Positions 7,694 through 31,760 of a DNA stretch of 39,611 nt are shown here, piece by piece. A model generated the notes under the pieces. The model was not told where the DNA came from. It made no database searches and saw nothing but the letters and a program-made list of their open reading frames with translations. Position numbers and translations under genes: made by a program. This stretch comes from Acetobacterium malicum subsp. dehalogenans DSM 11527. Lineage in GTDB: Bacteria; Bacillota; Clostridia; Eubacteriales; Eubacteriaceae. Where the stretch lies: assembly GCF_000472665.1 (NCBI RefSeq), contig NZ_KI421451.1:1-39611 (forward strand), written 5' to 3'. Position 1 is the stretch's first letter. Each line of letters opens with the position of its first letter.

Positions 7694-7772
7694 GTTTCAC
7701 AAACGCCTATCTCAATAAACTGGATAACCCTTGTAGTCAAACCATCTTTGCTTTGACTTCGGTTTCGCAAAT
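7694..7772 (+). promoter_or_regulatory. Two GTTTCrCAAAy motifs upstream of gabT
   Basis: GTTTCACAAAC (7694-7704) and GTTTCGCAAAT (7762-7772) lie in the gabT leader. The first sits in a stretch resembling bases 22-55 of the window (GTTCG, TTTAAGTTTC, CAAA, CTAT, TCA in the same order), hinting at a shared upstream control region. Confidence 0.3.
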
Positions 7773-7781
7773 AAACTAAAC

Positions 7782-7821
7782 AAAAAAAACAAGACCGGGA
7801 AGCGACTTCCTTGTCTTGTTT
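7782..7821 (-). terminator. Intrinsic terminator or gabT leader attenuator (minus strand)
   Basis: AAACAAGAC and GTCTTGTTT form a 9-bp stem around a GGAAG/CTTCC inner stem. On the minus strand the hairpin is followed by eight T residues. It lies about 160 bp upstream of the gabT start and after another terminator, so it may act as an attenuator in the gabT leader rather than as a gene end. Confidence 0.65.
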
Positions 7822-7934
7822 ATGTCTGTTATTATAGCACAGCTAAAAACAGGCGCAATGGCCAGCTAGCCTAAATTATTTCAATTTAATTGTGCTGACC
7901 ATACAATATCATCAGCTGCGCGACTGGTTAATCT

Positions 7935-10311: not shown

Positions 10312-11532
10312 ATGAAATCACCAATCGCCATTATCCCCAGTCCTACTGATCACCAAAACACAAATCTCGACCTGACCCCGCTACTAGCCCCAGCCGCTGT
10401 CGCCGCGGTCCGCCGTTTCCACCAATCCCTGCCCGATTATCAGCCAACGCCGCTGGTGTCGCTGCCCGGACTGGCGCAGAAATTAGGCGTCGGGGCTATT
10501 TTTATTAAGGATGAGTCCCACCGATTTGGTCTCAATGCCTTTAAAGGCCTGGGGGCCTCTTATGCGATGGCCACCATCATCGCCAATTATGTTAACGCCG
10601 AAGCGGATCTGAATTACACTTTTCTGACGGCCCCGGCGGTTCGCCAGCAAGTCAAAGAGCTGGTTTTTATCACCGCCACCGACGGCAACCACGGCAAGGG
10701 GGTGGCCTGGGCCGCGGCGCTGTTCGGTTGTCGGGCGATCGTGCTGATGCCCCGGGGAACTCAGGCCTGCCGGGCTGAGGCGATCCGGGCCATCAATGAT
10801 ACTCAGGTCGAGATCACCGACCTCAATTACGACGATGCCGTCCGCCGGGCCGCCCATCTGGCTGCGGAGCATGGCTATCTCCTGATTCAGGACACCGGCC
10901 TGGCCGGCTATGAGGAGATTCCCAATGCCATTACCCGGGGTTATACCACGATGGCCGCGGAAGCCCTGGAACAATTGCAAGACCGTGGCATTGCCAAACC
11001 CAGTCATGTTTTTCTGCAGGCCGGGGTCGGTTCCATGGCCGGCGGGGTACTGGGTTATCTGACCCATTACTACGACCACAATCCGCCACTGACCACGATT
11101 GTCGAACCGGACACCGTCGCCTGCATCTATCAATCAGTCCAGCAGGGTCAGGGCCAGCCGTTGGCTATTGGCGGTAACCCGGAAACGATTATGGCCGGTT
11201 TAAACTGCGGCGAACCCAACCCCCTGACCTGGCCGATCCTGCGGGACTATGCCAGTTTCTATGCCCGCTGTCCGGACTGGGTCACCGAGCTGGGGATGCA
11301 GACCCTGGCCCACCCCGAAGCTGCTGACCCGACTGTCATCTCCGGCGAATCCGGTGCCGTCGGTCTGGGTCTGCTGCTGTCCCTGTGTACCGACCCAAAC
11401 CTGGCTGCCCTGAAACACCAGCTCCAGCTCGATCGTGCCTCAACGATCCTGCTTTTTAGCACCGAGGGCAATACCGATCCCGTCGGCTATGATGCAATTG
11501 TCAATCGCCTCGGGTCGCTGCAACTCATATAA
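10312..11532 (+). CDS. dpaL: 2,3-diaminopropionate ammonia-lyase
   Basis: 406-residue fold-type II PLP enzyme (EC 4.3.1.15) that splits 2,3-diaminopropionate into pyruvate and two ammonia; the family is also called YgeX. The Schiff-base lysine lies in RFGLNAFKGLGASYA (about residue 80). A phosphate and substrate loop is visible at TATDGNHGKGVAWAA, FLQAGVGSMAGGVLGY is typical of DpaL, and VISGESGAVGLG is the C-terminal glycine-rich cofactor segment. Length matches the family (about 400). AAAGGAGCACCCG precedes the ATG. It is paired with a PucR regulator and ends at a strong bidirectional terminator. Serine dehydratase-like relatives are the alternative, but the motif set favours DpaL. Confidence 0.88.
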   Translation: MKSPIAIIPSPTDHQNTNLDLTPLLAPAAVAAVRRFHQSLPDYQPTPLVSLPGLAQKLGVGAIFIKDESHRFGLNAFKGLGASYAMATIIANYVNAEADLNYTFLTAPAVRQQVKELVFITATDGNHGKGVAWAAALFGCRAIVLMPRGTQACRAEAIRAINDTQVEITDLNYDDAVRRAAHLAAEHGYLLIQDTGLAGYEEIPNAITRGYTTMAAEALEQLQDRGIAKPSHVFLQAGVGSMAGGVLGYLTHYYDHNPPLTTIVEPDTVACIYQSVQQGQGQPLAIGGNPETIMAGLNCGEPNPLTWPILRDYASFYARCPDWVTELGMQTLAHPEAADPTVISGESGAVGLGLLLSLCTDPNLAALKHQLQLDRASTILLFSTEGNTDPVGYDAIVNRLGSLQLI

Positions 11533-11550
11533 TAAGCCACTTAAAAAAAT

Positions 11551-11608
11551 AAAACCGCCGCCCCAGCTTGTCGATCCGCGATCGGATCTGTTCTGGGGCG
11601 GCGGTTTT
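11551..11608. terminator. Bidirectional intrinsic terminator between convergent genes
   Basis: A 16-bp perfect inverted repeat (AAAACCGCCGCCCCAG / CTGGGGCGGCGGTTTT) encloses a second small hairpin, GATCCG-CGAT-CGGATC. A-rich and T-rich flanks let it end both dpaL and the converging sugar aminotransferase transcript. Confidence 0.92.
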
Positions 11609-11659
11609 TTATCGTCATTGGTGAAGATTCCCTGGGTTCTTTTGGTAAGCGCTTATTTT

Positions 11660-12793
11660 TTAGTATTGATAAAACGCCGCGACTCGTTCCACCACCGTCG
11701 CCAGCTGGGCTTCGGTCAGGTTGTAAAACAAGGGCAGCCGCAATAGTCGCAGGCTTTCGCTGGTGGTAAAGCGGTCGGCGCCATGAAAGCGCCCGAATTT
11801 CTGGCCGCCGGGGGTCTCGTGAAGAGGGGTATAGTGAAAAACAGTACTGATCTGATCCTGCTTAAGCCAGGCGATCAGCTCATCCCGCTCCGACTGACTG
11901 GCGGTTTTGAGATAAAACAGATGGCCGTTATGCTGACAGTGCTCCGGCACCACCGGCAGCTCAATCCGGCCGGCGGCAGCCAGCGGGGTTAATTGCTCAA
12001 AATATTGCCGCCATAAGCTCAGCCGCCGGGCATTGACCATTGCGGCAGCTTCCAGCTGGGCATAAAGATGGGCGGCATTCAGTTCACTGGGTAAATAGGA
12101 GGAACCCAGATCAACCCAGGAATACTTGTCCACCCGGCCAGCCAGAAAATCATGACGGTTGGTGCCCTTGTCGCGAATAATCGTGGCCCGCTCCAGCAGG
12201 CTTTCCCGATTAATCAGCAGCGCGCCGCCTTCACCCATGGTGTAGTTCTTGGTTTCATGGAAACTGTAACAGCCCAGATCCCCGATGCTGCCGAGGGCCT
12301 TGTTTTTGTAACTGGCCATCAACCCCTGGGCGGCATCCTCCACCACCAGCAGGTGATGCCGTCTGGCCAGGCCCATAATCGCGTCCATCTCACAGCCGAT
12401 CCCGCCATAATGAACCGGCACAATCACCTTGGTGCGGGGGGTGATGGCCGCCTCAATCAGGGTTTCGTCGATGTTCAGGGTATCCGGGCGGATATCGACA
12501 AAGACGATGGTAGCGCCGCGCAGGGCAAAGGCATTGGCAGTGGTCACAAAGGTAAAAGCCGGCATGATGACCTCATCCCCGGGTTTGATGTCGGCCAGCA
12601 GGGCGGTCATTTCCAGGGCCGCAGTGCCGGAGCTGGTTAAAAAAGCGCCGGGCACCTGGGCATTTTGACATAACCAGTCCGAGCAGGCTTTGGTAAACGG
12701 GCCATCACCACCAATCTGGTGATTCTGGGTGATCGCTTCCTGGATGTATTTGATTTCGGTGCCCAAACACAGGGGCAGATTAAATGGTATCAT
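11660..12793 (-). CDS. wecE: dTDP-4-amino-4,6-dideoxygalactose transaminase-like (WecE/RffA, DegT family)
   Basis: 377-residue DegT/DnrJ/EryC1 sugar aminotransferase, closely resembling E. coli WecE (376 residues): MIPFN start, LTSSGTAALEMTALL, KPGDEVIMPAFTFVTTANAF, PDTLNIDETLIEAAIT, VVEDAAQGLMASY and the Schiff-base lysine in SFHETKNYTMGEGGA. WecE makes dTDP-4-amino-4,6-dideoxygalactose from the 4-keto sugar for envelope polysaccharides. Of several in-frame starts, the ATG at 12793 has GAGGAA 7-8 bp upstream and gives the family length. It lies 51 bp after the ABC ATPase gene and is probably cotranscribed with that sulfonate-type transporter, an unusual partner. No dTDP-sugar synthesis genes are in the window. 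Confidence 0.85.
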   Translation of the reverse strand: MIPFNLPLCLGTEIKYIQEAITQNHQIGGDGPFTKACSDWLCQNAQVPGAFLTSSGTAALEMTALLADIKPGDEVIMPAFTFVTTANAFALRGATIVFVDIRPDTLNIDETLIEAAITPRTKVIVPVHYGGIGCEMDAIMGLARRHHLLVVEDAAQGLMASYKNKALGSIGDLGCYSFHETKNYTMGEGGALLINRESLLERATIIRDKGTNRHDFLAGRVDKYSWVDLGSSYLPSELNAAHLYAQLEAAAMVNARRLSLWRQYFEQLTPLAAAGRIELPVVPEHCQHNGHLFYLKTASQSERDELIAWLKQDQISTVFHYTPLHETPGGQKFGRFHGADRFTTSESLRLLRLPLFYNLTEAQLATVVERVAAFYQY

Positions 12794-12844
12794 CGTCATT
12801 TCCTCGTTTATCTTAAGCTGGTGCATCAATGCCTGTTGCGATTT

Positions 12845-13615
12845 CTAAACATCAATCAGATCGAGAATTTCTTCGCGCCGGGCCAGATAGTCGGCATCGA
12901 CGTGAACCCGGCCGGTGCGTTCATCAACCCGGTCACAAAAAGCGACGTTGAATTCCTGGATAATGGTGCCGGGACTTTTGGACATCACCAGCAGCCGGGT
13001 CCCCAGGGACAGGGCCTCGTCAACATCGTGGGTGATCATAAAGATGGTGTTCTGGTCTTCTTGCCAGATTTTACGGACCAGCTGCTGCATGTGAATCCGG
13101 GTCAGCGCATCGAGAGCGCCGAAGGGTTCATCCAAGAGCAGGATCGCCGGTTCATTGGCCAGCGCCCGGGCCAGGGCAACCCGCTGTTTCATTCCCCCGG
13201 ACAGCTGAAAAGGCGGCTGATCGGCTACCTCCAGCAGGTGCACCTGGTCCAGATAATGACTAGCAATCCGGTTGATCTCTGCGGCCGGCAGACCTTTTAT
13301 TTTCGGGCCAAACTCGACATTTTTGCGGACACTCATCCAGGGATACAGGGACGCCGACTGAAACACTACCCCCCGTTGACGATCCGGTCCGGCAACCGGC
13401 TGGCCCTGCATTAAAAAGGTCCCGTCACTGGGCCGGGTAAACCCGGCAATGACGTTAAGCAATGTACTTTTGCCACAGCCCGAGGGCCCCAGCACGCAGA
13501 TGAAATCGTGCTGATAGATCTTCAGATCAACCCCATCCAGGGCCCGGACCGATTCATTTTCGGTGGGATAATCCACGGTTAAATTGTCAATTTCGATGAT
13601 CAGCTCGTTGTTCAT
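12845..13615 (-). CDS. ABC transporter ATPase, TauB/SsuB type (system 1)
   Basis: 256-residue ATPase of the nitrate/sulfonate/taurine importer family. Walker A GPSGCGKST (about 43), Q-loop in VVFQSASLYPWMSV, signature LSGGMKQR (about 143), Walker B ILLLDEPFGALD (about 163) and the switch histidine in FMITHDVDEA are all present. It energises the permease at 14859-15644, with substrate delivered by the lipoprotein at 13628-14671. The start follows GGAGGGATCCGG and lies 12 bp after the binding-protein stop, so the genes are cotranscribed. The substrate is inferred from the family and the sulfur-gene neighbourhood only. Confidence 0.9.
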   Translation of the reverse strand: MNNELIIEIDNLTVDYPTENESVRALDGVDLKIYQHDFICVLGPSGCGKSTLLNVIAGFTRPSDGTFLMQGQPVAGPDRQRGVVFQSASLYPWMSVRKNVEFGPKIKGLPAAEINRIASHYLDQVHLLEVADQPPFQLSGGMKQRVALARALANEPAILLLDEPFGALDALTRIHMQQLVRKIWQEDQNTIFMITHDVDEALSLGTRLLVMSKSPGTIIQEFNVAFCDRVDERTGRVHVDADYLARREEILDLIDV

Positions 13616-13627
13616 CCGGATCCCTCC

Positions 13628-14671
13628 TTATTTTAGTGACATTTCAATATAGCTTGAATTGATAAAGGCGTCAAATGCTTCCTGACTGGGGGAATTATCA
13701 ATGGATTTCTGACTTTGCAGAAAATCAGCGGTATCCTTCATGATTTTGGCAAAATTCCCGGGCTGCTCGGCCGTCCCCAGATAATCGGCACTGAGCTGTT
13801 CTTCCGGCGTCAACCAGATTGATCCGGTCATCTGCATCAGGGCGTTTTCGGTGGTGATCCCCAGTTCGGTGGCCACTGCCGTAGCGGCTTCCTGGGGATT
13901 GCTGCGATAGAGATCGCCGCCGTCACTGAGGCATTTCACAAAGCCGGCCACCAGCTCGGGATACTGGGCCGAAAATTCTTTGCGCACCAGACAGACATTG
14001 GCGGTGACATAGCCTTTTTCGGCCATATCGGCACTGCTGACCAGAATCGTCCCATTTTGGGTCAGATCGCCCAGGGTCGGCTGCCAGCTATAGGCGGCAT
14101 TGATATCGCCCCGCTCCCAGGCGGCGACGATTTCGGCGGTCTGCATATCCAGCAATTGGACCTGATTTTCAATCCCCGCTTCTTTTAGATAATTCAGCAA
14201 GCTGTAATGGGCGGTACTGGCAAACGGCGTAGCAATCTTCTGACCCACCAGATCTTCGGGTTTGGTGATATTACTGCCGTTCTTCACCGCCAGCCCCTCA
14301 ATTTCGCCCAGCACCTCATGGATCCAGATCAGTTCCACATCGATCCCCCGGGCCAAGGCAATAATGCCATTGGTATTACCCATGGTGGCAAAGTCGATAC
14401 TGCCCGAAGCCAGCGCCTTGTTGGCATCCACCCCGGAATCAAAGACGATAAACTCGTATGGTACTCCCAGCTCATTGAAATAGGCCTCATAGACCGCCTT
14501 GGTCTTACTGACCATCTCATCATTGGGCACCCGCAGATAACCAATATTCACCTTCTTGGGTAAGCTGCCCTGCTCGCTCTGCGCCTGACAGCCGCTAAAC
14601 AGCCCCATCGTCACAACCACAGCCACCAGCACCGCCAGCACCCAGACCTTTTTCTTTATTACTCTTTTCAT
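13628..14671 (-). CDS. ABC transporter substrate-binding lipoprotein, TauA/SsuA type (system 1)
   Basis: 347-residue extracellular binding protein. The N-terminus is a lipoprotein signal: KRVIKKK, a hydrophobic stretch, then lipobox LFSGC with Cys about residue 28. The mature part has the NMT1/SsuA-type periplasmic-binding fold (NIGYLRVPNDEMVSKTK, ALASGSIDFATMGNTNG, AAYSWQPTLGDL). It resembles taurine/alkanesulfonate binding proteins. Its ribosome binding site AGGAGG (14679-14684) lies partly in a 16-bp repeat duplicated on the far side of palindromic copy 5. That repeat separates the gene from the permease gene upstream. The substrate is not proven. Confidence 0.87.
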   Translation of the reverse strand: MKRVIKKKVWVLAVLVAVVVTMGLFSGCQAQSEQGSLPKKVNIGYLRVPNDEMVSKTKAVYEAYFNELGVPYEFIVFDSGVDANKALASGSIDFATMGNTNGIIALARGIDVELIWIHEVLGEIEGLAVKNGSNITKPEDLVGQKIATPFASTAHYSLLNYLKEAGIENQVQLLDMQTAEIVAAWERGDINAAYSWQPTLGDLTQNGTILVSSADMAEKGYVTANVCLVRKEFSAQYPELVAGFVKCLSDGGDLYRSNPQEAATAVATELGITTENALMQMTGSIWLTPEEQLSADYLGTAEQPGNFAKIMKDTADFLQSQKSIDNSPSQEAFDAFINSSYIEMSLK

Positions 14672-14681
14672 TTCCTAACCT

Positions 14682-14697
14682 CCTATTGGTAGCCCTT
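14682..14697 (-). repeat. 16-bp direct repeat, copy B (beside palindromic copy 5)
   Basis: CCTATTGGTAGCCCTT on the plus strand is identical to 14858-14873. On the minus strand it reads as a former permease end (GGCTACCAATAG) running into the AGGAGG of the binding-protein gene. Confidence 0.85.
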
Positions 14698-14742
14698 TTA
14701 CTTCAGATCAAATAGCAAGCGTATTCTTCAATAGACAACCCA

Positions 14743-14840
14743 GTACCGACAATTGTTACATCATGTTGTACGCATCGGAGCGGACACGGCATCGCCTGTC
14801 CGAGTCCGCGGCGAACAACAGATTAACAATTGGTCGGTAC
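14743..14840 (+). repeat. Palindromic intergenic element, copy 5 (98 bp, short form)
   Basis: It has the common outer arms plus only the first hairpin module (CGGACAc-GGCatcGCC-tGTCCG). It lies between the tauC-like and tauA-like genes of one operon, so it must be transcribed and would fold in the mRNA. The loop ATC differs from GTA and AGC in copies 1 and 6 while the stem is kept. Confidence 0.9.
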
Positions 14841-14857
14841 GGTAGTCTGACGCCACC

Positions 14858-14873
14858 CCTATTGGTAGCCCTT
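14858..14873 (-). repeat. 16-bp direct repeat, copy A (permease 3' end)
   Basis: It is identical to 14682-14697 and includes the TAG stop of the permease gene. Together the two copies bracket a 160-bp segment that contains palindromic copy 5, which looks like an insertion with target duplication. Confidence 0.85.
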
Positions 14874-15644
14874 CCAGAAAACAATTTTCTTTTCCAGGGC
14901 TTTCAGACCCTGATCAATCAACACCCCCGAGATCCCCATGATGATGATCCCGACAAAGATGACACTGCTTTTTAAGTACCGGGACGCATCTATGACCATC
15001 CAGCCCAGACCCGAGGTGGCGGCGATCATCTCCGCTGATACCAGGGTGGTGTAGGCCACCCCCACCGCCGTCCGGATGCTGGTAAAAATATCCGGCAGAC
15101 AGGCCGGAAAAACAATCTGAAAAAATAAGTCCTTGCCGCTGGCCCCCAGCGACTTGGCACTGAGCAGATACTCCACCCGAATGTTGGATACTGCTGAGAC
15201 ACAGGCAATGTAAATCGGCGCAAAGGCCGCCAGATACAGCAGCGTGATCTTGGACGATTCATCAATCCCCAGCCACAGAATCAATACCACGTAATAAGCC
15301 AGCGGCGGCAGCGGCCGGTAAAACTGGACAATCGAATCCACCACCGCCCCGACCTTGCTGAAATAACCGCTGAATAACCCCAGCGGCACCGCCGTGACAA
15401 TCGCCAGCAGCGAGGCGATCAACAGCCGCAGCATACTGATGCCCAGATGTTCCCAGAGACTGATGCCGTTATAACCATCTTTGACAATCGAAATAAAGGT
15501 CTGGATCACTTCCCCCGGGGATGGCACAATCAGGTGGGAAACCAGATTGAAGCGGGTGATCAGAAACCAGACCAGAAAAATAAAGGCCCAGGTCAAGAGA
15601 GTCAGCATCCGATGGTTTTTGTTAAAATCCTTCTTGTTCTGCAT
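14859..15644 (-). CDS. ABC transporter permease, TauC/SsuC type (system 1)
   Basis: 261-residue inner-membrane permease with about six hydrophobic helices. The EAA-type coupling motif is around residues 165-185 (SAKSLGASGKDLFFQIVFPACLP). The family-typical stretch VGVAYTTLVSAEMIAATSGLGWMV follows; this is highly characteristic of sulfonate/nitrate/taurine permeases. AGGAGG precedes the start ATG. It is the first gene of the permease, binding-protein, ATPase and wecE series. Palindromic copy 5 now lies between it and the binding-protein gene. Substrate specificity rests with the binding protein. Confidence 0.9.
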   Translation of the reverse strand: MQNKKDFNKNHRMLTLLTWAFIFLVWFLITRFNLVSHLIVPSPGEVIQTFISIVKDGYNGISLWEHLGISMLRLLIASLLAIVTAVPLGLFSGYFSKVGAVVDSIVQFYRPLPPLAYYVVLILWLGIDESSKITLLYLAAFAPIYIACVSAVSNIRVEYLLSAKSLGASGKDLFFQIVFPACLPDIFTSIRTAVGVAYTTLVSAEMIAATSGLGWMVIDASRYLKSSVIFVGIIIMGISGVLIDQGLKALEKKIVFWKGYQ

Positions 15645-15726
15645 GCTTCCTCCTGATTCTGGGCCTTTAGCCGGTTGTTTTCTGATAATTCACAAACCGC
15701 TTATGATTCGGTTAATTGTTTCTATC

Positions 15727-17424
15727 TTAACAAAAATTATAGTCCGTTACAATAGGTTTGCGGTTCTTTGTCTGGTCGTTGAAATATTCGTAGGTACAGA
15801 TCCCCAGGAAGGAACCGGATACGTTGAAGATATTGTCATAGCCCAGTTGTCCCAGGGCTCTGGTCATATTGTAGCTGCGTTGAGCGCTACGGCAATGGAT
15901 GTAAACCGGTTGGTCTTTGGGAATCTCGGTCAATCGCTGACGGAATTCACTCAGCGGAATGTTCACCGCATTGATCAGGTGGCTTTGGGCAAACTCATCG
16001 GGCTCTCTGGCATCAATGATAAAGGCATTGCTTTCCACCAGACCGCGCACGGCGGTCACCGGTACCTGCTTGAATTCGCCATTCAGAATATTCAGGGCGA
16101 CCATGGCGGCAAAATTGACCGGATCCTTGGCGGTACTGAAGGCCGGAGCGTAACAGAGTTCCAGTTCTTTGAGGTCTTCCAGGGTGGCACCCATGGAAAT
16201 CATCGCGGCAACCACATCAATCCGCTTGGTGGCATTACCCTTACTGACTGCCTGGGCCCCGATAATTTTTCCGGTGGGCACTTCAAAAACCAGCTTTAAA
16301 AAGAAGGGGGTGGCATCCGGCATGATGCCGACAATATCACCGGGAATCAGGTACACCATGTCATGGGGAATCCCGCAGCGGGTGGCATTAGCTTCGGTTA
16401 ACCCGGTGGAGGCCACGTTCATTTCAAAGATCTTGATACAGGAAGAACCAATCACCCCATTGTTCCGGGTGGGAATGCCATAAAGGTGATCAGCGGCGGC
16501 ACGGGCCTGTTTCTGGGCCGGGCCGGCCAGCGCCAGTTTGGTTTTCTTGTGGGTCAGCTGATGATAGACTTCCACGGCATCGCCGACCGCATAAATGTTT
16601 GGCACGCTGGTCTGATAATGATGGTTAACCAGAATCGCACCGGTTTCGCCAATTTCCAGTCCGGCTTGCTGCGCCAGGCGGGTATCCGGGGTGACCCCGA
16701 TGGCCATGACGACAGCCTGGGCAGGCAGGGTTTGGCCCGATTCTAACACCACTGAATCATCATTAATGGTGGCGATGGCATCTTCGAGAATCAGCTGAAC
16801 GCCATTGTCGAGCAGTTCTTTGTGGAGAATCTGAACCATGTCATAATCCAGGGTACACATGATCTGATCGGCTTTTTCAACCAGGGTAACGTTAAAGCCC
16901 GCCGCTGACAGTTTCAGATTTTCGGCCACTTCGACACCGATAAAGCCGCCGCCAACAACAACCACATCTTTAACGCCATTCTGGACAAACTTATTGATCT
17001 TATCTATATCTACCACATTTTTGACGGAAAAAACATGGGCTTTGTCATAACCGGAAATTTTAGGGACGATGGGATTGGCCCCCGGCGCCATAAACAGGGC
17101 ATCATAGCTTTCTTCATATTCTTTTCCGGCCAGCAGGTCTTTGACCCGGACGGTTTTTTGTTCGGGATTGATCCCCACCACTTCCTGGTTGACCCGGGCC
17201 GTAATGTTATATTGTTTTTTAAAGACATCCGGTGTCATCAACACCAGATCTTCGCTTTTTTCAATCATGCCACTGAGGTGATTGGGCAGACAGCAATTTG
17301 AAAAGGATACGTTTGGCCCTTTTTCAAACATGATAATCTCAGCCGCTTCATCCAGTCTTCTTGTTCGCGCCGCTACTGAAGCTCCTCCAGCAACGCCGCC
17401 GATAATGACTACTTTTTTTCCCAT
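15727..17424 (-). CDS. CoA-disulfide reductase / rhodanese fusion (FAD-dependent)
   Basis: 565-residue fusion. Residues about 1-450 form a pyridine nucleotide-disulfide oxidoreductase: FAD motif VVIIGGVAGGASVAARTRR, redox cysteine in SFSNCCLPNHLSG (about 43), NAD(P)H motif VVVVGGGFIGVEVAENL and FAD-binding IYAVGDAVEV. Residues about 455-550 form a rhodanese domain with catalytic cysteine in YIHCRSAQRSYN. CoA-disulfide reductase-rhodanese proteins reduce CoA disulfides, persulfides or polysulfide using NAD(P)H. The active site has two adjacent cysteines (NCC) where the family usually has NCG, and the protein ends in YNFC. A YeeE/YedE permease is encoded just upstream on the same strand. It probably handles sulfane sulfur brought into the cell. 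Confidence 0.88.
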   Translation of the reverse strand: MGKKVVIIGGVAGGASVAARTRRLDEAAEIIMFEKGPNVSFSNCCLPNHLSGMIEKSEDLVLMTPDVFKKQYNITARVNQEVVGINPEQKTVRVKDLLAGKEYEESYDALFMAPGANPIVPKISGYDKAHVFSVKNVVDIDKINKFVQNGVKDVVVVGGGFIGVEVAENLKLSAAGFNVTLVEKADQIMCTLDYDMVQILHKELLDNGVQLILEDAIATINDDSVVLESGQTLPAQAVVMAIGVTPDTRLAQQAGLEIGETGAILVNHHYQTSVPNIYAVGDAVEVYHQLTHKKTKLALAGPAQKQARAAADHLYGIPTRNNGVIGSSCIKIFEMNVASTGLTEANATRCGIPHDMVYLIPGDIVGIMPDATPFFLKLVFEVPTGKIIGAQAVSKGNATKRIDVVAAMISMGATLEDLKELELCYAPAFSTAKDPVNFAAMVALNILNGEFKQVPVTAVRGLVESNAFIIDAREPDEFAQSHLINAVNIPLSEFRQRLTEIPKDQPVYIHCRSAQRSYNMTRALGQLGYDNIFNVSGSFLGICTYEYFNDQTKNRKPIVTDYNFC

Positions 17425-17503
17425 TTGTCTTCTCCTTCTGATTAAAATTTTTGAATTTATTATGATGTCGTGATCGTTGTGCTCAGTTTCTCACGCAAGA
17501 TTG

Positions 17504-18793
17504 TTATTTCTGATGTCGGTCAGGGGGAATAATGTTGACCTTTCCGGCAAAAACTTTCAGCGCTAATATTCCGCCCATCCACAGAGTCAGGAAGAATCCC
17601 CACCCGGACAGTGAAAAATTGGCAATCCCCGAGAACAACGCCCCGATGTTACAGCCGCCGGCCAGTCTGGCTCCAAAGCCCATTAAAAAACCGCCGATCA
17701 GATAGTAAATAACGTCTTTTACTTTAAATTTGCCGTCAAAGGCAAGCCGACCAGCCAGTAAGAAGGCGATTGCGGCACCGAGAATAATACCGATGTTTCG
17801 CAGCGAGCCGGGATCATTTAAAATGCCCCCATTGGCGGTTGCCACGGCGTCAGCAAAAACCGGCGCGGTAAATTGCACCCCAAACAGCTGCAGGAAGGCG
17901 ACACCCCAGGATACAAATGGGCCGGTTACGCCCCAGCTGTGGCCGGTGGAGATCAGAATAAAAGCAAACATCAGCGCCAGCAGAATCCCACCGATCATAA
18001 AACTCCAGCGTTGGACAAAAAGCTTATGGAAGGTCGCATAGCTGAACAGTTTAAACGGCTCTTTATTGGGGATCGGTAATTCCTGGTCTTCGTAGACGGT
18101 GGATTCATAGTAGCCTTCTTTTTTACGGAAGTTTTCATATTTGCGCACGACCAGATAAAGACCGGCCAGCATCAGTATTGAGACCACCACGGCGCCCACA
18201 TAACCAAGAACATCCGGCAGATAAAGCTTGATCCCGATCTGGCCGATGGCGGAATTATTCAGGGCATCCTGAGCCATCAAACCCGGCAGTGAGCCCAGTA
18301 CAAAGGTGGTCATGGCGATCATCGCTCGTCCGGCACCTTCACCTAAATCACTGAGCGTTCCGGACGCACAGCCTCCGGCCAGCATCATCCCGATGCCAAA
18401 GATAAACCCGCCCAGTAAAATAGAGATGTTTAAGAACTTAACTGAACTTAACCCCGGCACATCAGCCCCGGACATCGTGGCGGACCACTGAATCCCGGCG
18501 GCCAGAACCATGGCAAGCGCAAACATCACCAGCAGCGCCGTGCTGAGGCTGCCTTCGCCGGTGACATAGATCCGTTTGAACCCACCGGCAAAGCCATAGC
18601 GGGAGCGGGTCAAAATATAACCCAGCGCTAAACCGGTCATCAGAAACAGGGTCAGTTTCTGATCCACATTTCCTTTGATGATGCCAAAAACGACAACTGC
18701 AATAAATAAGGCCAGGCCGATAACCGGCTGTATTTTTTTCTTTTTCGTTAGTTCATTTGTTTTTGGTAGATCGATACGATTAGAAATATCCAT
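17504..18793 (-). CDS. YeeE/YedE-family sulfur-compound permease (full length, TsuA-like)
   Basis: 429-residue membrane protein with two homologous halves. Each half carries a conserved pore cysteine motif: FGIGMMLAGGCASGTLSDLGEG in the first, MGFGARLAGGCNIGALFSG in the second. In the family, TsuA imports thiosulfate through a chain of conserved cysteines. The start follows TAGGAGGGTAAAATA. The CoA-disulfide reductase/rhodanese gene is 79 bp downstream on the same strand, and a secreted double rhodanese gene lies upstream beyond palindromic copy 6. I infer thiosulfate or persulfide import feeding cytosolic rhodanese. Transport of another sulfur or selenium species is possible. Confidence 0.87.
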   Translation of the reverse strand: MDISNRIDLPKTNELTKKKKIQPVIGLALFIAVVVFGIIKGNVDQKLTLFLMTGLALGYILTRSRYGFAGGFKRIYVTGEGSLSTALLVMFALAMVLAAGIQWSATMSGADVPGLSSVKFLNISILLGGFIFGIGMMLAGGCASGTLSDLGEGAGRAMIAMTTFVLGSLPGLMAQDALNNSAIGQIGIKLYLPDVLGYVGAVVVSILMLAGLYLVVRKYENFRKKEGYYESTVYEDQELPIPNKEPFKLFSYATFHKLFVQRWSFMIGGILLALMFAFILISTGHSWGVTGPFVSWGVAFLQLFGVQFTAPVFADAVATANGGILNDPGSLRNIGIILGAAIAFLLAGRLAFDGKFKVKDVIYYLIGGFLMGFGARLAGGCNIGALFSGIANFSLSGWGFFLTLWMGGILALKVFAGKVNIIPPDRHQK

Positions 18794-18822
18794 TATTTTA
18801 CCCTCCTATCAGGTCTAAATAA

Positions 18823-18851
18823 ACATGAAGTGGCAAAATGCCACTTCATGT
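18823..18851 (-). terminator. Perfect hairpin (13-bp stem), weak terminator or mRNA element
   Basis: ACATGAAGTGGCA and TGCCACTTCATGT enclose three bases. On the minus strand TTTATTTAG follows, a weak U-tract. It lies between the double-rhodanese gene and the permease start, next to palindromic copy 6, so it may end the former transcript or stabilise the permease mRNA. Confidence 0.55.
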
Positions 18852-18870
18852 GAGGTTGTCAAAAACCACC

Positions 18871-19059
18871 GTACCGACCAATTGTTAATCTGTTGTTCGC
18901 TGCGGCCAATACGAAATCCGCTTTGCTCCTTTCGCATTAGTCGCGGGCAGTCGCCAACTACAAGCAAGCTTGTGATTGGCTCGTTGCCTTCGCGAAAATC
19001 GGACAGGCGCTGCCGTGTCCGCTCCGATGCGTACAACATGATGTAACAATTGTCGGTAC
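18871..19059 (-). repeat. Palindromic intergenic element, copy 6 (189 bp, long form, inverted)
   Basis: Reverse-orientation long form. Compared with copy 1, one hairpin has a paired T-A to C-G change (CATAAGC/GCTTATA to CACAAGC/GCTTGTA), and CTGCGCGCAG has become TTCGCGAA, again self-complementary. It lies between the double-rhodanese and YeeE/YedE genes. Confidence 0.9.
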
Positions 19060-19089
19060 TAGGTTATCTTTTTGAAAGTCTACCGTTAA

Positions 19090-20019
19090 TTAATTGGTTA
19101 CCAGTGGGTAGCCTTTGTTTGTCCAGCCAGCGGTACCAGTAGCGGCAGTTCCGGCTCCGGAGTTAAGGGATACAGCATCATAACCCAGTAACCGTAATCC
19201 GGCTACAGTCTGTCCAGCGGTTTGTCCGGTGTAACAGTAAACGATGATGGTTTTGTCGGTTGGCAGAGTGCCAAACTGTGTTTCCATGCCTTTTCCGAAA
19301 GGTATGTTGACAGCGCCTTCAATATGGCCTTTGGCAAAATCTTCTGCTTTTCTGACGTCCAGGAAGGTAATGGTCGTGTCTTTGGCGTCCAGTGCGGCTT
19401 TAGCATCGTCTTCGGTAATTTTGTAGTTGGCAAATTTAGTATCTTTCACATCGGTCAGACCGGCATAATAAGCAACGACGGCTTCTTGAATCGCAGGATC
19501 AATTTCAGTTTTGACGGCATCATCAAAAGCATTTGGTGTCGTTTCAATGACGGCATCCACGCCTTCGACCTTGGAAATCCCCAGGTTCCAGCCTAAATTG
19601 ACTGATTTCGTGTCGAATCCGGCGATATTCAATAAGGCAACTGTCTGTCCGGCGGTTTGTCCGGTGACACAATAAATCATGACGGGTTTATCAGCGGGAA
19701 TTTTGGTCAGGTTTTCGGCCAGGTTGGGACCCCATGGCATACTCAGGGCGCCTTTGATATGGCCCTGGGCATAAGCATCGGCACTACGGATATCGATGAT
19801 GGTCATCGCGTCGCCGGCTTTCACCTTGTCCACGAAAGCAACCTGATCAATCTTGTAGATGTCTTCCGGCATGCTGGCAAAATACTCATTGGTTGCGGTA
19901 ACAACCGGATCGACCTCGGTCTTGCCACCTGTTTGTGTGGTGCCAGTGCTGCAGGCACTGACAAATATCATGGTGCTGAGTAATACCAATAAAACTAAAA
20001 CACGACTTCTTTTTAACAT
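19090..20019 (-). CDS. Secreted lipoprotein with two rhodanese domains
   Basis: 309-residue exported sulfurtransferase. The N-terminus is a lipoprotein signal (KRSR, hydrophobic core, lipobox VSAC with Cys about 23), so the protein should sit on the outer face of the membrane. Two rhodanese domains follow (about 45-155 and 175-305). Each keeps a catalytic cysteine in nearly the same loop, MIYCVTGQTAGQT and IVYCYTGQTAGQT, suggesting an internal duplication with both halves active. GGAGGAAAAG precedes the ATG. It is encoded just upstream of a YeeE/YedE permease. I infer that it handles thiosulfate or sulfane sulfur outside the cell and hands it to the permease. Confidence 0.88.
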   Translation of the reverse strand: MLKRSRVLVLLVLLSTMIFVSACSTGTTQTGGKTEVDPVVTATNEYFASMPEDIYKIDQVAFVDKVKAGDAMTIIDIRSADAYAQGHIKGALSMPWGPNLAENLTKIPADKPVMIYCVTGQTAGQTVALLNIAGFDTKSVNLGWNLGISKVEGVDAVIETTPNAFDDAVKTEIDPAIQEAVVAYYAGLTDVKDTKFANYKITEDDAKAALDAKDTTITFLDVRKAEDFAKGHIEGAVNIPFGKGMETQFGTLPTDKTIIVYCYTGQTAGQTVAGLRLLGYDAVSLNSGAGTAATGTAGWTNKGYPLVTN

Positions 20020-29250: not shown

Positions 29251-30240
29251 TTAATCAATCAGGTCATACTGGAATCTGGACAGGTGCTCATAAGGAAGAA
29301 TCAGTCTGCCGCGGTAGAGGCCACAGCCGTCGTTGATCAGGGAATTATCCATGGCGGCAAACATGTTGACATCCAATTTTGATAATTCCAGCTGTTGTAA
29401 GGTGATCCCGCGTTCATAGGCATCATCAAAATAAACATTTTCTCCTTGGGGAATGGCATCGCGTCGGGCTCTTTCACTTTCCTGTCGTTTTTCGTAACCT
29501 AAATGATTTGCCGGGCCAATCTCAGCAAAATCGTCCATTTCTTTGGTCCGCAGTTGTACCTCCACATAACAACGGGCGATGTTATCATAAAAGGTGATAT
29601 GCAGCGAACGATAGCCACTGGACTCCGTGTTTGCAATATAATCGCGATAGTATGGGCTGACGCGCTCATTTAACAAGGGCGCTTTTTTCTGACCCTTTAA
29701 CGTCGACAGTTCGGCAGTAAATCCGCGTTCCTCGAGGAAACCGGGCAGCTGGTTGGCCACATCATAGAGATATTTTATTTCTTCGTCGGCGCAAGTCTGC
29801 CCTGCTTTCAGATGACATTTGGGCAATGAAATCACGATCCGATAGGCAATCAGGTCGCGAAAACAATTTAAAGCGTTTTTGAGTTCCGGCAGTGACGGGT
29901 AATTGCCGTACTCTCGATAATAATCGTAAATGTACTCGACAATGTATCCATTAAATTTGGCTTCGGCGCGAATCAGTGATTTAATCCGACCCTTAAAAGT
30001 AAAAGCCAGAAAAGGATAGTCATTGGCCATCAGTGCATAGAATTCCCGAATCCGCTGCGATTGCGAAGTCAGGAAATCATTATGCTGCAAAAGTTCCGCA
30101 ATTTGAAGCAGAAAATTACAATGCAACAGCTCAATCTGGTTATCCGTTTCTTTCGCCGACTGTTTCAAATCTTCCGAATACCGCTGTAAAATCTTCAGCA
30201 CGGTATCGCCGGAGTATAAGTAATCATTTAGTTTTTTCAA
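29251..30240 (-). CDS. RelA/SpoT-domain protein (alarmone synthetase-like)
   Basis: 329-residue protein with a RelA/SpoT nucleotidyltransferase domain in its middle and C-terminal part: TFKGRIKSLIRAEAKFNG, CFRDLIAYRIVISLP, GYRSLHITFYD and VEVQLRTKEMDDFAEIGPANHLGYEK, the last holding the conserved glutamate and histidine. It has no HD hydrolase or TGS/ACT domains, so it resembles a small alarmone synthetase with an added helical N-terminus (about 90 residues). It may make (p)ppGpp or a related signal, or act as a toxin-like pyrophosphokinase. The TTG start at 30240 has GAAAGGA 9 bp upstream. An ATG at 30324 would place a repeated sequence in the coding region and is disfavoured. Confidence 0.78.
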   Translation of the reverse strand: MKKLNDYLYSGDTVLKILQRYSEDLKQSAKETDNQIELLHCNFLLQIAELLQHNDFLTSQSQRIREFYALMANDYPFLAFTFKGRIKSLIRAEAKFNGYIVEYIYDYYREYGNYPSLPELKNALNCFRDLIAYRIVISLPKCHLKAGQTCADEEIKYLYDVANQLPGFLEERGFTAELSTLKGQKKAPLLNERVSPYYRDYIANTESSGYRSLHITFYDNIARCYVEVQLRTKEMDDFAEIGPANHLGYEKRQESERARRDAIPQGENVYFDDAYERGITLQQLELSKLDVNMFAAMDNSLINDGCGLYRGRLILPYEHLSRFQYDLID

Positions 30241-30273
30241 GATGGACCGTCCTTTCCTACTTGTAAATTTGAG

Positions 30274-30334
30274 TTTGTATCTTTTCTCGTTCTTATTTGG
30301 TAGAGGCGATCCGTACCGGTTCATAGTGCCAATT
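30274..30334 (-). repeat. Repeat R1 upstream of the RelA/SpoT-domain gene
   Basis: About 60 bp resembling 31682-31734: TTCTTATTTGGTrGAGGCrA followed by TCCGTACCGG, with flanking TTTGTATCTT and GTGnCAATT also shared. It lies in the leader of a minus-strand gene, as does R2. Confidence 0.7.
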
Positions 30335-30531
30335 AATATCAGGGGTTATCGACACGTGAAAAAATGAATTTTTGAAAGAATATTGCACCTTTAACAATGT
30401 CTATTTTACTATAAGCTTTCAATCGTATCACTTTCTATGTAGCATTGTATCAAATAATTTAATCCATCTTCCTTTTTTCTCGATGAACGTTATTCCTATT
30501 TTTTCGTCCTTATTCAAACTCGATCGATGGA

Positions 30532-31473
30532 TCACTCTTCGCATACCCAGATATAACGCAAAAAATCGCCATTTTTATTTTTCCCAATTTTACAATGATC
30601 GATGATTCTGAGATTTTCCTGTGTGAGTTCATCCCTTATATCTTCTGATGAAGCCAAAACGATTTTTTTCGAAATTCTTATCGCATTCCTAATGATTTTT
30701 AATTGATTTTCATCATTTTTATGGCTGAAATTACCGTATGGAAGATCTACAATGGCAGCATCAAAACTATCATTTATATCCTGAATATCTCCGGTAATAA
30801 CTTTTGCTTCATAGTTAAAATGCCTCAAGTTTTTTCGTGCATTTTCAGCCGTTTTACTATTTATTTCACACCCGATAATATCATATCCGGCCCAAATACC
30901 TTCTAATAATACCGTCCCGACACCACAACATGGATCGATTAATCGTTTTGATGTATCGCCATTCCCGGCAATATTTATCAAAACTTTTGCAGTACTTAGA
31001 CCGATCGAACTAGAATACGAATTTGGTTTCTGATTGTGCTTTTTCCAATAAGGACTTCTCTCTGTTAATTTTCCTAAGTACCAGTTTTCCTCATAAAAAG
31101 TAATTCCAAATATAATTTTAGGTGAAGTATAACAAACAAGGCCCTCAATAGCAAGACCGATTGCTTTGCAATACTCTCGTCTTTTTGTGAAGTGCGGGTC
31201 ATCTATTCCCAATTCCATATATTTAACCATGAAATCTGATGCTGCTATCTTATCTTTCATTGTCAACTCTATAAGTTCTAAAAACGTGGAAGCTTTGTAT
31301 ATAATTTCCAACCGGCTTTTTAAAAATGGACTTATGGAAGGATGAACCTTTCTACTTTCAAAAAAGACTTTTTCTTTCAAACCGAACTTAAAAAGAGAGC
31401 GCACCTCAATTTCGCAACTTTCTTTTTCATAAGTAGGATAATTCAAATTATAGATGAACCGTTCTGTTTTCAT
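30532..31473 (-). CDS. TRM11/UPF0020-type nucleic-acid methyltransferase
   Basis: 313-residue protein. The C-terminal half is an SAM-dependent Rossmann methyltransferase: LIDPCCGVGTVLLEGIWAG (SAM motif), IIGCEINSKTAENARKN, VITGDIQDI and catalytic-site IVDLPYGNFS (N/D-PPY-like, as in tRNA guanosine N2-methyltransferases and RlmL). The N-terminal half is a poorly conserved, possibly THUMP-like region. GAGGTG 6 bp upstream supports the ATG at 31473. Base composition is clearly more AT-rich than the sulfur region, suggesting a different origin. Target RNA is not determinable. Confidence 0.78.
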   Translation of the reverse strand: MKTERFIYNLNYPTYEKESCEIEVRSLFKFGLKEKVFFESRKVHPSISPFLKSRLEIIYKASTFLELIELTMKDKIAASDFMVKYMELGIDDPHFTKRREYCKAIGLAIEGLVCYTSPKIIFGITFYEENWYLGKLTERSPYWKKHNQKPNSYSSSIGLSTAKVLINIAGNGDTSKRLIDPCCGVGTVLLEGIWAGYDIIGCEINSKTAENARKNLRHFNYEAKVITGDIQDINDSFDAAIVDLPYGNFSHKNDENQLKIIRNAIRISKKIVLASSEDIRDELTQENLRIIDHCKIGKNKNGDFLRYIWVCEE

Positions 31474-31681
31474 TTGCATCACCTCATGGTTTATTTGATG
31501 TTACCTATTCTGTGTTTTGTCCACACTTCCACCTCTGGTATAGTTGCCCAAGTATTCTGAATTCAGACAACCAACCTATCCATTTAAATAAATTCGTACT
31601 TACTCTCTCCCCTTTGCAAAGACATTTATTTCAAATATATATATATAACACCTCACCACAAGGTGGCCTTTATTGTATCAA

Positions 31682-31734
31682 TTTGTATCTTCTTATTTGG
31701 TGGAGGCAATCCGTACCGGTTTGAGGTGACAATT
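31682..31734 (-). repeat. Repeat R2 upstream of the methyltransferase gene
   Basis: Second copy of R1, about 210 bp upstream of the methyltransferase start. A small inverted repeat (CCACAAGGTGG) lies just before it. Similarity continues weakly to about 31760 (TTATCG). Confidence 0.7.
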
Positions 31735-31760
31735 TGCATTGAAGATTATCGTCGTAATTA

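Follow-up and report, generated by a model that had tools for sequence, protein, structure and literature searches.

A MITE inserted with a 16-bp target duplication between tau-like genes of Acetobacterium, in a family probably moved by IS1182-type transposases

A MITE has inserted between a tauC-like and a tauA-like gene of Acetobacterium malicum subsp. dehalogenans DSM 11527 with duplication of 16 bp of target sequence, and the family to which it belongs was likely moved by IS1182-type transposases that copy whole stem-loops; we put the probability of this combined reading at about 0.8. The element, referred to here as copy 5, lies in a window of 39,611 nucleotides (contig NZ_KI421451.1, positions 1 to 39,611), the window being the whole stretch of DNA that was analysed. 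In the proposed course of events, a non-autonomous MITE would have entered the junction in the ancestor of the locus versions now carried by the window's own genome (G000), A. wieringae DSM 1911 (G012) and A. fimetarium DSM 8238 (G016). In the duplicated 16 bp lie the tail of tauC and the first part of the tauA ribosome binding site, and so both genes stayed intact.

The tauC-tauA site with and without the insert

The operon is read from the minus strand in the order tauC, tauA, tauB (tauB-like gene at 13615-12845; other coordinates in Table 1). NCBIfam matches of the three products fall under the curated cut-offs (in bits, TauC 214 against 342, taurine-binding protein 213 against 304, taurine ATPase 254 against 357), so the gene names are approximate and are given as 'tau-like'. 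The 16-mer CCTATTGGTAGCCCTT occurs twice, in exact form. The preliminary description had placed the tauC stop in one copy and the tauA AGGAGG at the other, and these coordinates were confirmed. Elsewhere in the window, two 62-nt stretches show 76% similarity; that at 30290-30351 overlaps minus-strand ORF 29251-30324 at its 5' end, and that at 31690-31751 lies beyond ORF 30532-31482.

Table 1. Features of the tauC-tauA junction and of a second family copy in the window.
Feature	Position	Strand	Remark
tauC-like ABC permease gene	14859..15644	-	stop TAG 14861-14859 within right 16-bp copy
Target duplication CCTATTGGTAGCCCTT, tauC side	14858..14873		single in G001 (exact) and G011 (two differences)
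Inserted unit, 160 bp	14698..14857		missing from empty-site relatives
Copy 5 right arm, 17 nt	14841..14857		standard consensus GGTAGTTTATCGACAACCTC, 20 nt; ACC at usual family offset
Copy 5 palindromic core GTACCGAC...GTCGGTAC, 98 bp	14743..14840		dozens of repeats
Copy 5 left arm, 45 nt	14698..14742		outer 25-30 nt confined to this site (G000, G012, G016)
Target duplication, tauA side	14682..14697		final AGG (minus strand) belongs to AGGAGG
AGGAGG, ribosome binding site of tauA-like gene	14679..14684	-	conserved in G001, G011, G012, G016
tauA-like substrate-binding protein gene	13628..14671	-	ORF and NCBIfam match
Copy 6, same family as copy 5	18864..19072	-	adjoins hairpin ATGAAGTGGCAAAATGCCACTTCAT

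A protein search with TauA found a match in 42 of 61 genomes, and the tauC-tauA junction was read in the best 16 of these matches, the next-listed weaker ones having at most 33% identity. Three of the 16 junctions are filled and carry both 16-bp copies (G000, G012 and G016). The other 13 are without the element: eight have a single near-copy of the 16-mer (0-5 mismatches), five have no copy, and none of these 13, among the 16 best TauA matches, has two. The clearest empty site is that of G001, the metagenome-assembled genome HGW-Firmicutes-4, in which the locus lies on one 3472-bp contig and TauA is 97% identical. Exactly one 16-bp copy is present there, in a compact tauC-stop/AGGAGG/tauA arrangement equal to the collapsed duplication. 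G011 has a compact junction laid out in the same way, its 16-mer showing two differences, and in both genomes the flanking alignments overlap by exactly 16 bases. A chance 16-bp repeat is ruled out by the single-copy junctions in relatives together with these 16-base overlaps. The preliminary description had proposed insertion of a unit of about 160 bp with target duplication that left both genes intact, had predicted the compact junction that collapsing the duplication would give, and had called for a comparison with empty sites in relatives; the empty-site relatives support the proposed insertion, and the predicted junction is precisely the one seen in G001.

The filled junctions of G012 and G016 have the same insert, the same flanks and both 16-bp copies, the right copy of G012 having one base changed. 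Their left arms match that of G000 at 41 of 45 and 39 of 45 bases, respectively. With both copies and the same arms present, the three filled sites therefore go back to a single insertion event.

In a tree of the tauC and tauA flanks, G000, G001 and G012 group together with an ultrafast bootstrap of 100 and G016 falls outside, while the branching order among G000, G001 and G012 is not settled. Three tested topologies that place G001 outside the filled group were rejected (AU p 0.0035, 0.0011 and 0.0042). Because the flanks nest the empty G001 among filled genomes, its clean junction probably reflects precise loss of the insert, an outcome that recombination between the 16-bp repeats would give. 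This conclusion is provisional, as it concerns one metagenome contig at a locus with signs of interspecies exchange. Positions 11266-20000 are about 95% identical to A. wieringae G012, compared with 83-88% for neighbouring stretches of the window, which suggests that the tau block was exchanged between species. The same figures would favour a different history, in which the insertion took place after G001 had split off, G001 was never filled, and the G016 insert arrived by interspecies recombination of the locus. We regard this as a minority possibility, because the flanks on both sides of the junction unite G001 with G000 and G012 and leave G016 outside.

The repeat family and its flanking hairpins

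A search with copy 5 gave at least 42 matches in its own genome, 2 of which are the same palindromes on the other strand (40 of 124 candidates were scored). Standard copies run CAGACTGTCAAAAAAG...GACAACCTC, with arms of about 24 nt on the left (CAGACTGTCAAAAAAGATAACCCA) and about 20 nt on the right (GGTAGTTTATCGACAACCTC) beyond the core; core and arms together have imperfect inverted ends. The left-end pattern (at most 2 mismatches) is found in 13 of 19 genus genomes, with 23 occurrences in G000 and 27 in G009, and its reversed control in none of the 19. Among 30 genus-wide loci chosen by this pattern, the right end is recognisable in 28, and the unit is 141-270 bp long in 27 of those 28 and 58 bp in one. 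The family has the features of bacterial MITEs: its members are shorter than 500 bp, non-coding and repeated, and they have inverted ends and empty sites with target duplication. No Rfam family matched in the window at gathering thresholds, ruling out a known RNA family.

Standard arms are a minority. Within 373,252 bases chosen regardless of content, 37 copies have both core ends and only 6 of them have standard arms. Among 36 non-standard copies, 14 nevertheless have the motif A[AC]CC at right-arm offset 14, and no other offset has it in more than 4. Because non-standard right arms keep this motif in place, the data favour several related mobile end types rather than a core with variable flanks. 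Decay of the arms with age could account for many of the non-standard copies.

Outside the arms of many standard copies, and directly adjoining them, are two copies of one palindrome that resembles a terminator stem-loop. AAGTGATGGCTAAGCCATCACTT is one instance, an A run lying to its left and a T run to its right. Among 55 copies in G000, a partly selected set in which L001-L030 had been picked by similarity to copy 5, flanking direct repeats score at least 11 in 14 copies and at least 16 in 10, compared with 0.7% and 0.03% of mispaired flanks, a control that itself contains some high scores (maximum 34). Divided by arm type, this selected set has direct repeats at 12 standard copies out of 19 and at 1 of the 36 others, a figure that becomes 2 of 37 once copy 5 is counted; the tally omitted copy 5 and copies too near the end of a piece, L104:78 and L009 among them. 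The unselected sample gives 3 of 6 standard-armed copies and 2 of 31 others with a score of at least 11, copy 5 being one of the two. The score misses diverged hairpin pairs such as that of L019, where the duplication is visible from the empty site.

Across the genus, 18 of 28 loci have flanking direct repeats scoring at least 11 (0.4% of mispaired flanks), although the 28 are not all independent: L142, L154 and L166 are also in the 55-copy set, and L145 and L146 have the same flanks in two genomes. Twelve of the 18 repeats abut both ends exactly; 12 fold to -8 kcal/mol or better and 6 do not. An A run lies on the left of 12 and a T run on the right of 9, both in 6 and at least one in 15, and it is by these runs, that is by appearance, that we call the flanking hairpins putative terminators.

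Empty sites reveal the duplication directly. For four standard copies of G000, 18 of 20 orthologous stretches have one hairpin and no element, where G000 has two hairpins around the element; the other two stretches are uninformative (L228 was aimed at the wrong place and L229 has a different hairpin). The duplicated targets are AACTTAAAAGGTTTTTAAG (19 bp) and a 22-bp hairpin, both measured from alignment overlap, and hairpins of 23 and about 24 bp, measured from the two copies. Folded as DNA, the empty targets of the four sites reach -6.8 to -17.2 kcal/mol (z -3.7 to -9.9). The palindrome alone can be rejected as the mobile unit of standard copies, since the duplicated hairpins abut fixed ends outside it. 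The preliminary description had held that the mobile unit exceeds the palindrome, by 45 and 17 bp on its two sides. The first part stands for standard copies, whose left and right arms add about 24 and 20 nt; of the arm sizes, the 17-nt right arm ends near the usual place for the family, but the 45 bp on the left are not general to the unit.

Several individual copies deserve mention. The hairpin ATGAAGTGGCAAAATGCCACTTCAT next to copy 6 is single both in filled genomes and in the empty G001 and G011, and so is not duplicated; the copy 6 element is absent at the orthologous site in G001, G011 and G016. At L022 (G000:C6:2389), the stem is preserved in both hairpin copies although they differ at paired positions (AAACAGGG..CCCTGTTT and AAACGGGG..CCCCGTTT), as if both stayed in use. 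In A. wieringae the operon contains another copy, one with standard arms, in its tauA-tauB gap (L033:1339-1469, G012); this copy comes with a small palindrome in imperfect direct repeat over 16 bp (CATTATTCTAATGTCA / CATTATTCTAGTGACA). G000:C68 has a pair of copies with 190-bp cores (L090:3771-3961 and 7737-7927), 3.8 kb apart and oppositely oriented, which have the outer flank CCCGAGAGTTCATC in common, possibly through rearrangement or as a composite. Comparison with the G012 loci L108 and L033 shows core lengths at the copy 6 site of about 189 bp in G000 and about 98 bp in G012, with flanks that agree. The flanks agree likewise at the copy 5 site, where the core is 98 bp in G000 and G016 and about 131 bp in G012. 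Cores thus seem to have been swapped among dispersed copies.

IS1182-family elements and the origin of copy 5

Matches to IS1182-family transposases are present in 15 of 19 genus genomes and exceed the curated cut-off in 10. One element, L126 of A. wieringae G012, is autonomous: it is 1489 bp long and encodes an intact IS1182-family transposase of 474 aa. L112 of G007 is a decayed relative with stop codons in the transposase. Both have the ends CAGACTGTCAAA, and a run of 16 bases, CAGACTGTCAAAAAAG, is common to them and the standard left end of the MITE; the MITE right end (GAGGTTGTC read inward) is only partly similar to their ends. On either side of each stands a direct copy of a palindrome (18-21 bp). 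The target hairpin of L126 is single at empty sites in G000, G001 and G007, and the flanking alignments overlap by 21 bases in G000, G001, G007 and G002. Whole-hairpin duplication is thus seen with an autonomous IS1182-family element that has the same end sequence as the MITE, and with the MITE itself. Replacement of the IS1272 type, in which the target stem-loop is deleted and nothing is duplicated, was not seen at these sites: the four standard copies and L126 have two hairpins versus one in relatives.

Relatives of the L126 transposase (E 1e-30) occur in 5 of 19 genus genomes, and none was found in G000 at this threshold; the G000 family may therefore be immobile now, or depend on a different enzyme. 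Two long IS1182-family genes of G000, L111 and L128, were rejected as the source, their inverted matches spanning just 8-14 bases. Among other IS1182-family elements, L127 (G011) has inverted half-stems at its sides, a footprint like that of stem-loop replacement, and L114 and L134 have direct repeats of about 9 bp.

IS1182-type transposases are the most likely movers of the family; they would attack both strands at the base of a stem-loop. Repair of the gaps would then copy the whole stem-loop, and a terminator target would become one terminator on each side. That a branch of IS1182-type enzymes cleaves at the outer feet of the target stem-loop and reproduces it in full, leaving a putative terminator on both sides, is a reading to which we give somewhat better than even odds.

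Copy 5 is not a typical member. Its arms are 54% (left) and 65% (right) identical to the standard arms, and its target, folded as DNA, forms no hairpin (-0.8 kcal/mol, z +0.6). The outer 25-30 nt of the left arm have no match outside this site (19 genomes, E 0.01), so a 45-nt left arm was discarded as a conserved family feature. This outer part weakly resembles CAGACTGTCAAA (TTCAGA--TCAAA; shuffle p 0.03), less so in G016, and the right outer part compares with the family end at p 0.39. Excerpts of PMC12056078 indicate that IS1182-related transposases can use degenerate ends, and the outer left arm could, on this weak similarity, be a degenerate IS1182-type end. Because the left arm is still 39/45 identical between G000 and G016, the arms of copy 5 were probably non-standard already at insertion, and arm decay hardly explains them. 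Origin of the left arm by tandem duplication inside the arm (AATAG...AATAG) is speculation. For copy 5 itself we infer movement by a transposase of this kind, which may have worked through a degenerate outer left end, with insertion into a non-hairpin target.

These irregularities bear on two other explanations. One holds that the core palindrome is the unit that truly moves or is copied, the arms being donor flank and the IS1182-like ends one of several contexts. Arms are indeed far more variable than the core (standard ones are missing from 31 of 37 copies), the outer left arm of copy 5 is confined to its site, and the core differs in size at that site between G000/G016 and G012. However, in standard copies the ends that the duplicated hairpins abut are fixed, about 24 and 20 nt beyond the core, and 14 of 36 non-standard right arms keep A[AC]CC at offset 14; we consider this explanation unlikely. 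Still less probable, in our view, is an origin without transposition, by slippage during replication or by template switching, in which the junction was duplicated and a copy of the repeat picked up. The lack of a hairpin in the target and the unexplained filler in the left arm would suit such an event, but the insert is a family member whose right end is at the usual place, and other family copies show target duplication. Insertion of the MITE by transposition remains the preferred reading.

As RNA, the copy 5 insert with its flanks is predicted to fold to -78.4 kcal/mol (z -4.1), forming a long hairpin between tauC and tauA. The main stem does not include the tauA AGGAGG, which the centroid structure leaves unpaired; the minimum-energy structure places 5 of its 6 bases in a weak side stem. 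Simple scans of 14500-15100 found no promoter or terminator pattern created at the site. An effect of the hairpin on tauA expression is possible.

Relation to known elements and significance

The MITE resembles L126 and L112 in its left end CAGACTGTCAAAAAAG and in the direct copies of a palindromic target. It differs from L126 in that the latter is 1489 bp long with a transposase gene, and no GTACCGAC palindrome was seen at the L126 ends. Palindromic repeats and MITEs such as Correia, RUP, BOX, SPRITE and REP/BIME have a similar general character. Like them, the family is short, intergenic, palindromic, non-coding and present in many copies (excerpts of PMC10969869); judged by their descriptions, it is set apart by its end sequence and its hairpin-sized target duplication.

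A close parallel is IS1272/TnSha1 of staphylococci, which, in the portions of PMC4923244 and PMC5678879 consulted, has an IS1182-family transposase and targets stem-loops, several of them terminators, by structure and not by sequence. Unlike the Acetobacterium elements, which duplicate the whole stem-loop, IS1272 is described there as removing or replacing it, with no target duplication. The consulted part of PMC4923244 describes partial loss of hairpins and counts terminators among the targets, that of PMC5678879 draws whole-hairpin duplication by this IS1182-family element as a possible pathway only (3b-6b, Fig 13), and that of PMC12056078 has IS1182-related transposases acting with or without target duplication. 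It is the possible pathway of PMC5678879 that the Acetobacterium sites fit. The titles and abstract openings of the literature searched mention neither an Acetobacterium MITE nor whole-hairpin duplication. Part of these findings may already be known.

For the IS1182 family, IS databases list long, variable repeats. Whole-hairpin copying offers an explanation of such variable and unusually long target duplications. The published staphylococcal cases concern hairpin loss, as excerpted from PMC4923244 and PMC5678879, while the empty and filled sites in several Acetobacterium species present the opposite outcome, duplication of the whole hairpin, and form a testable system for structure-guided transposition. 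The sites also illustrate a way for an element to settle within an operon or a terminator while its neighbours stay uncut. If the proposed mechanism is true, terminators would be safe landing sites, which would explain the spread of one MITE family through Acetobacterium, and the long direct repeats would allow clean reversal of an insertion, as the G001 junction suggests.
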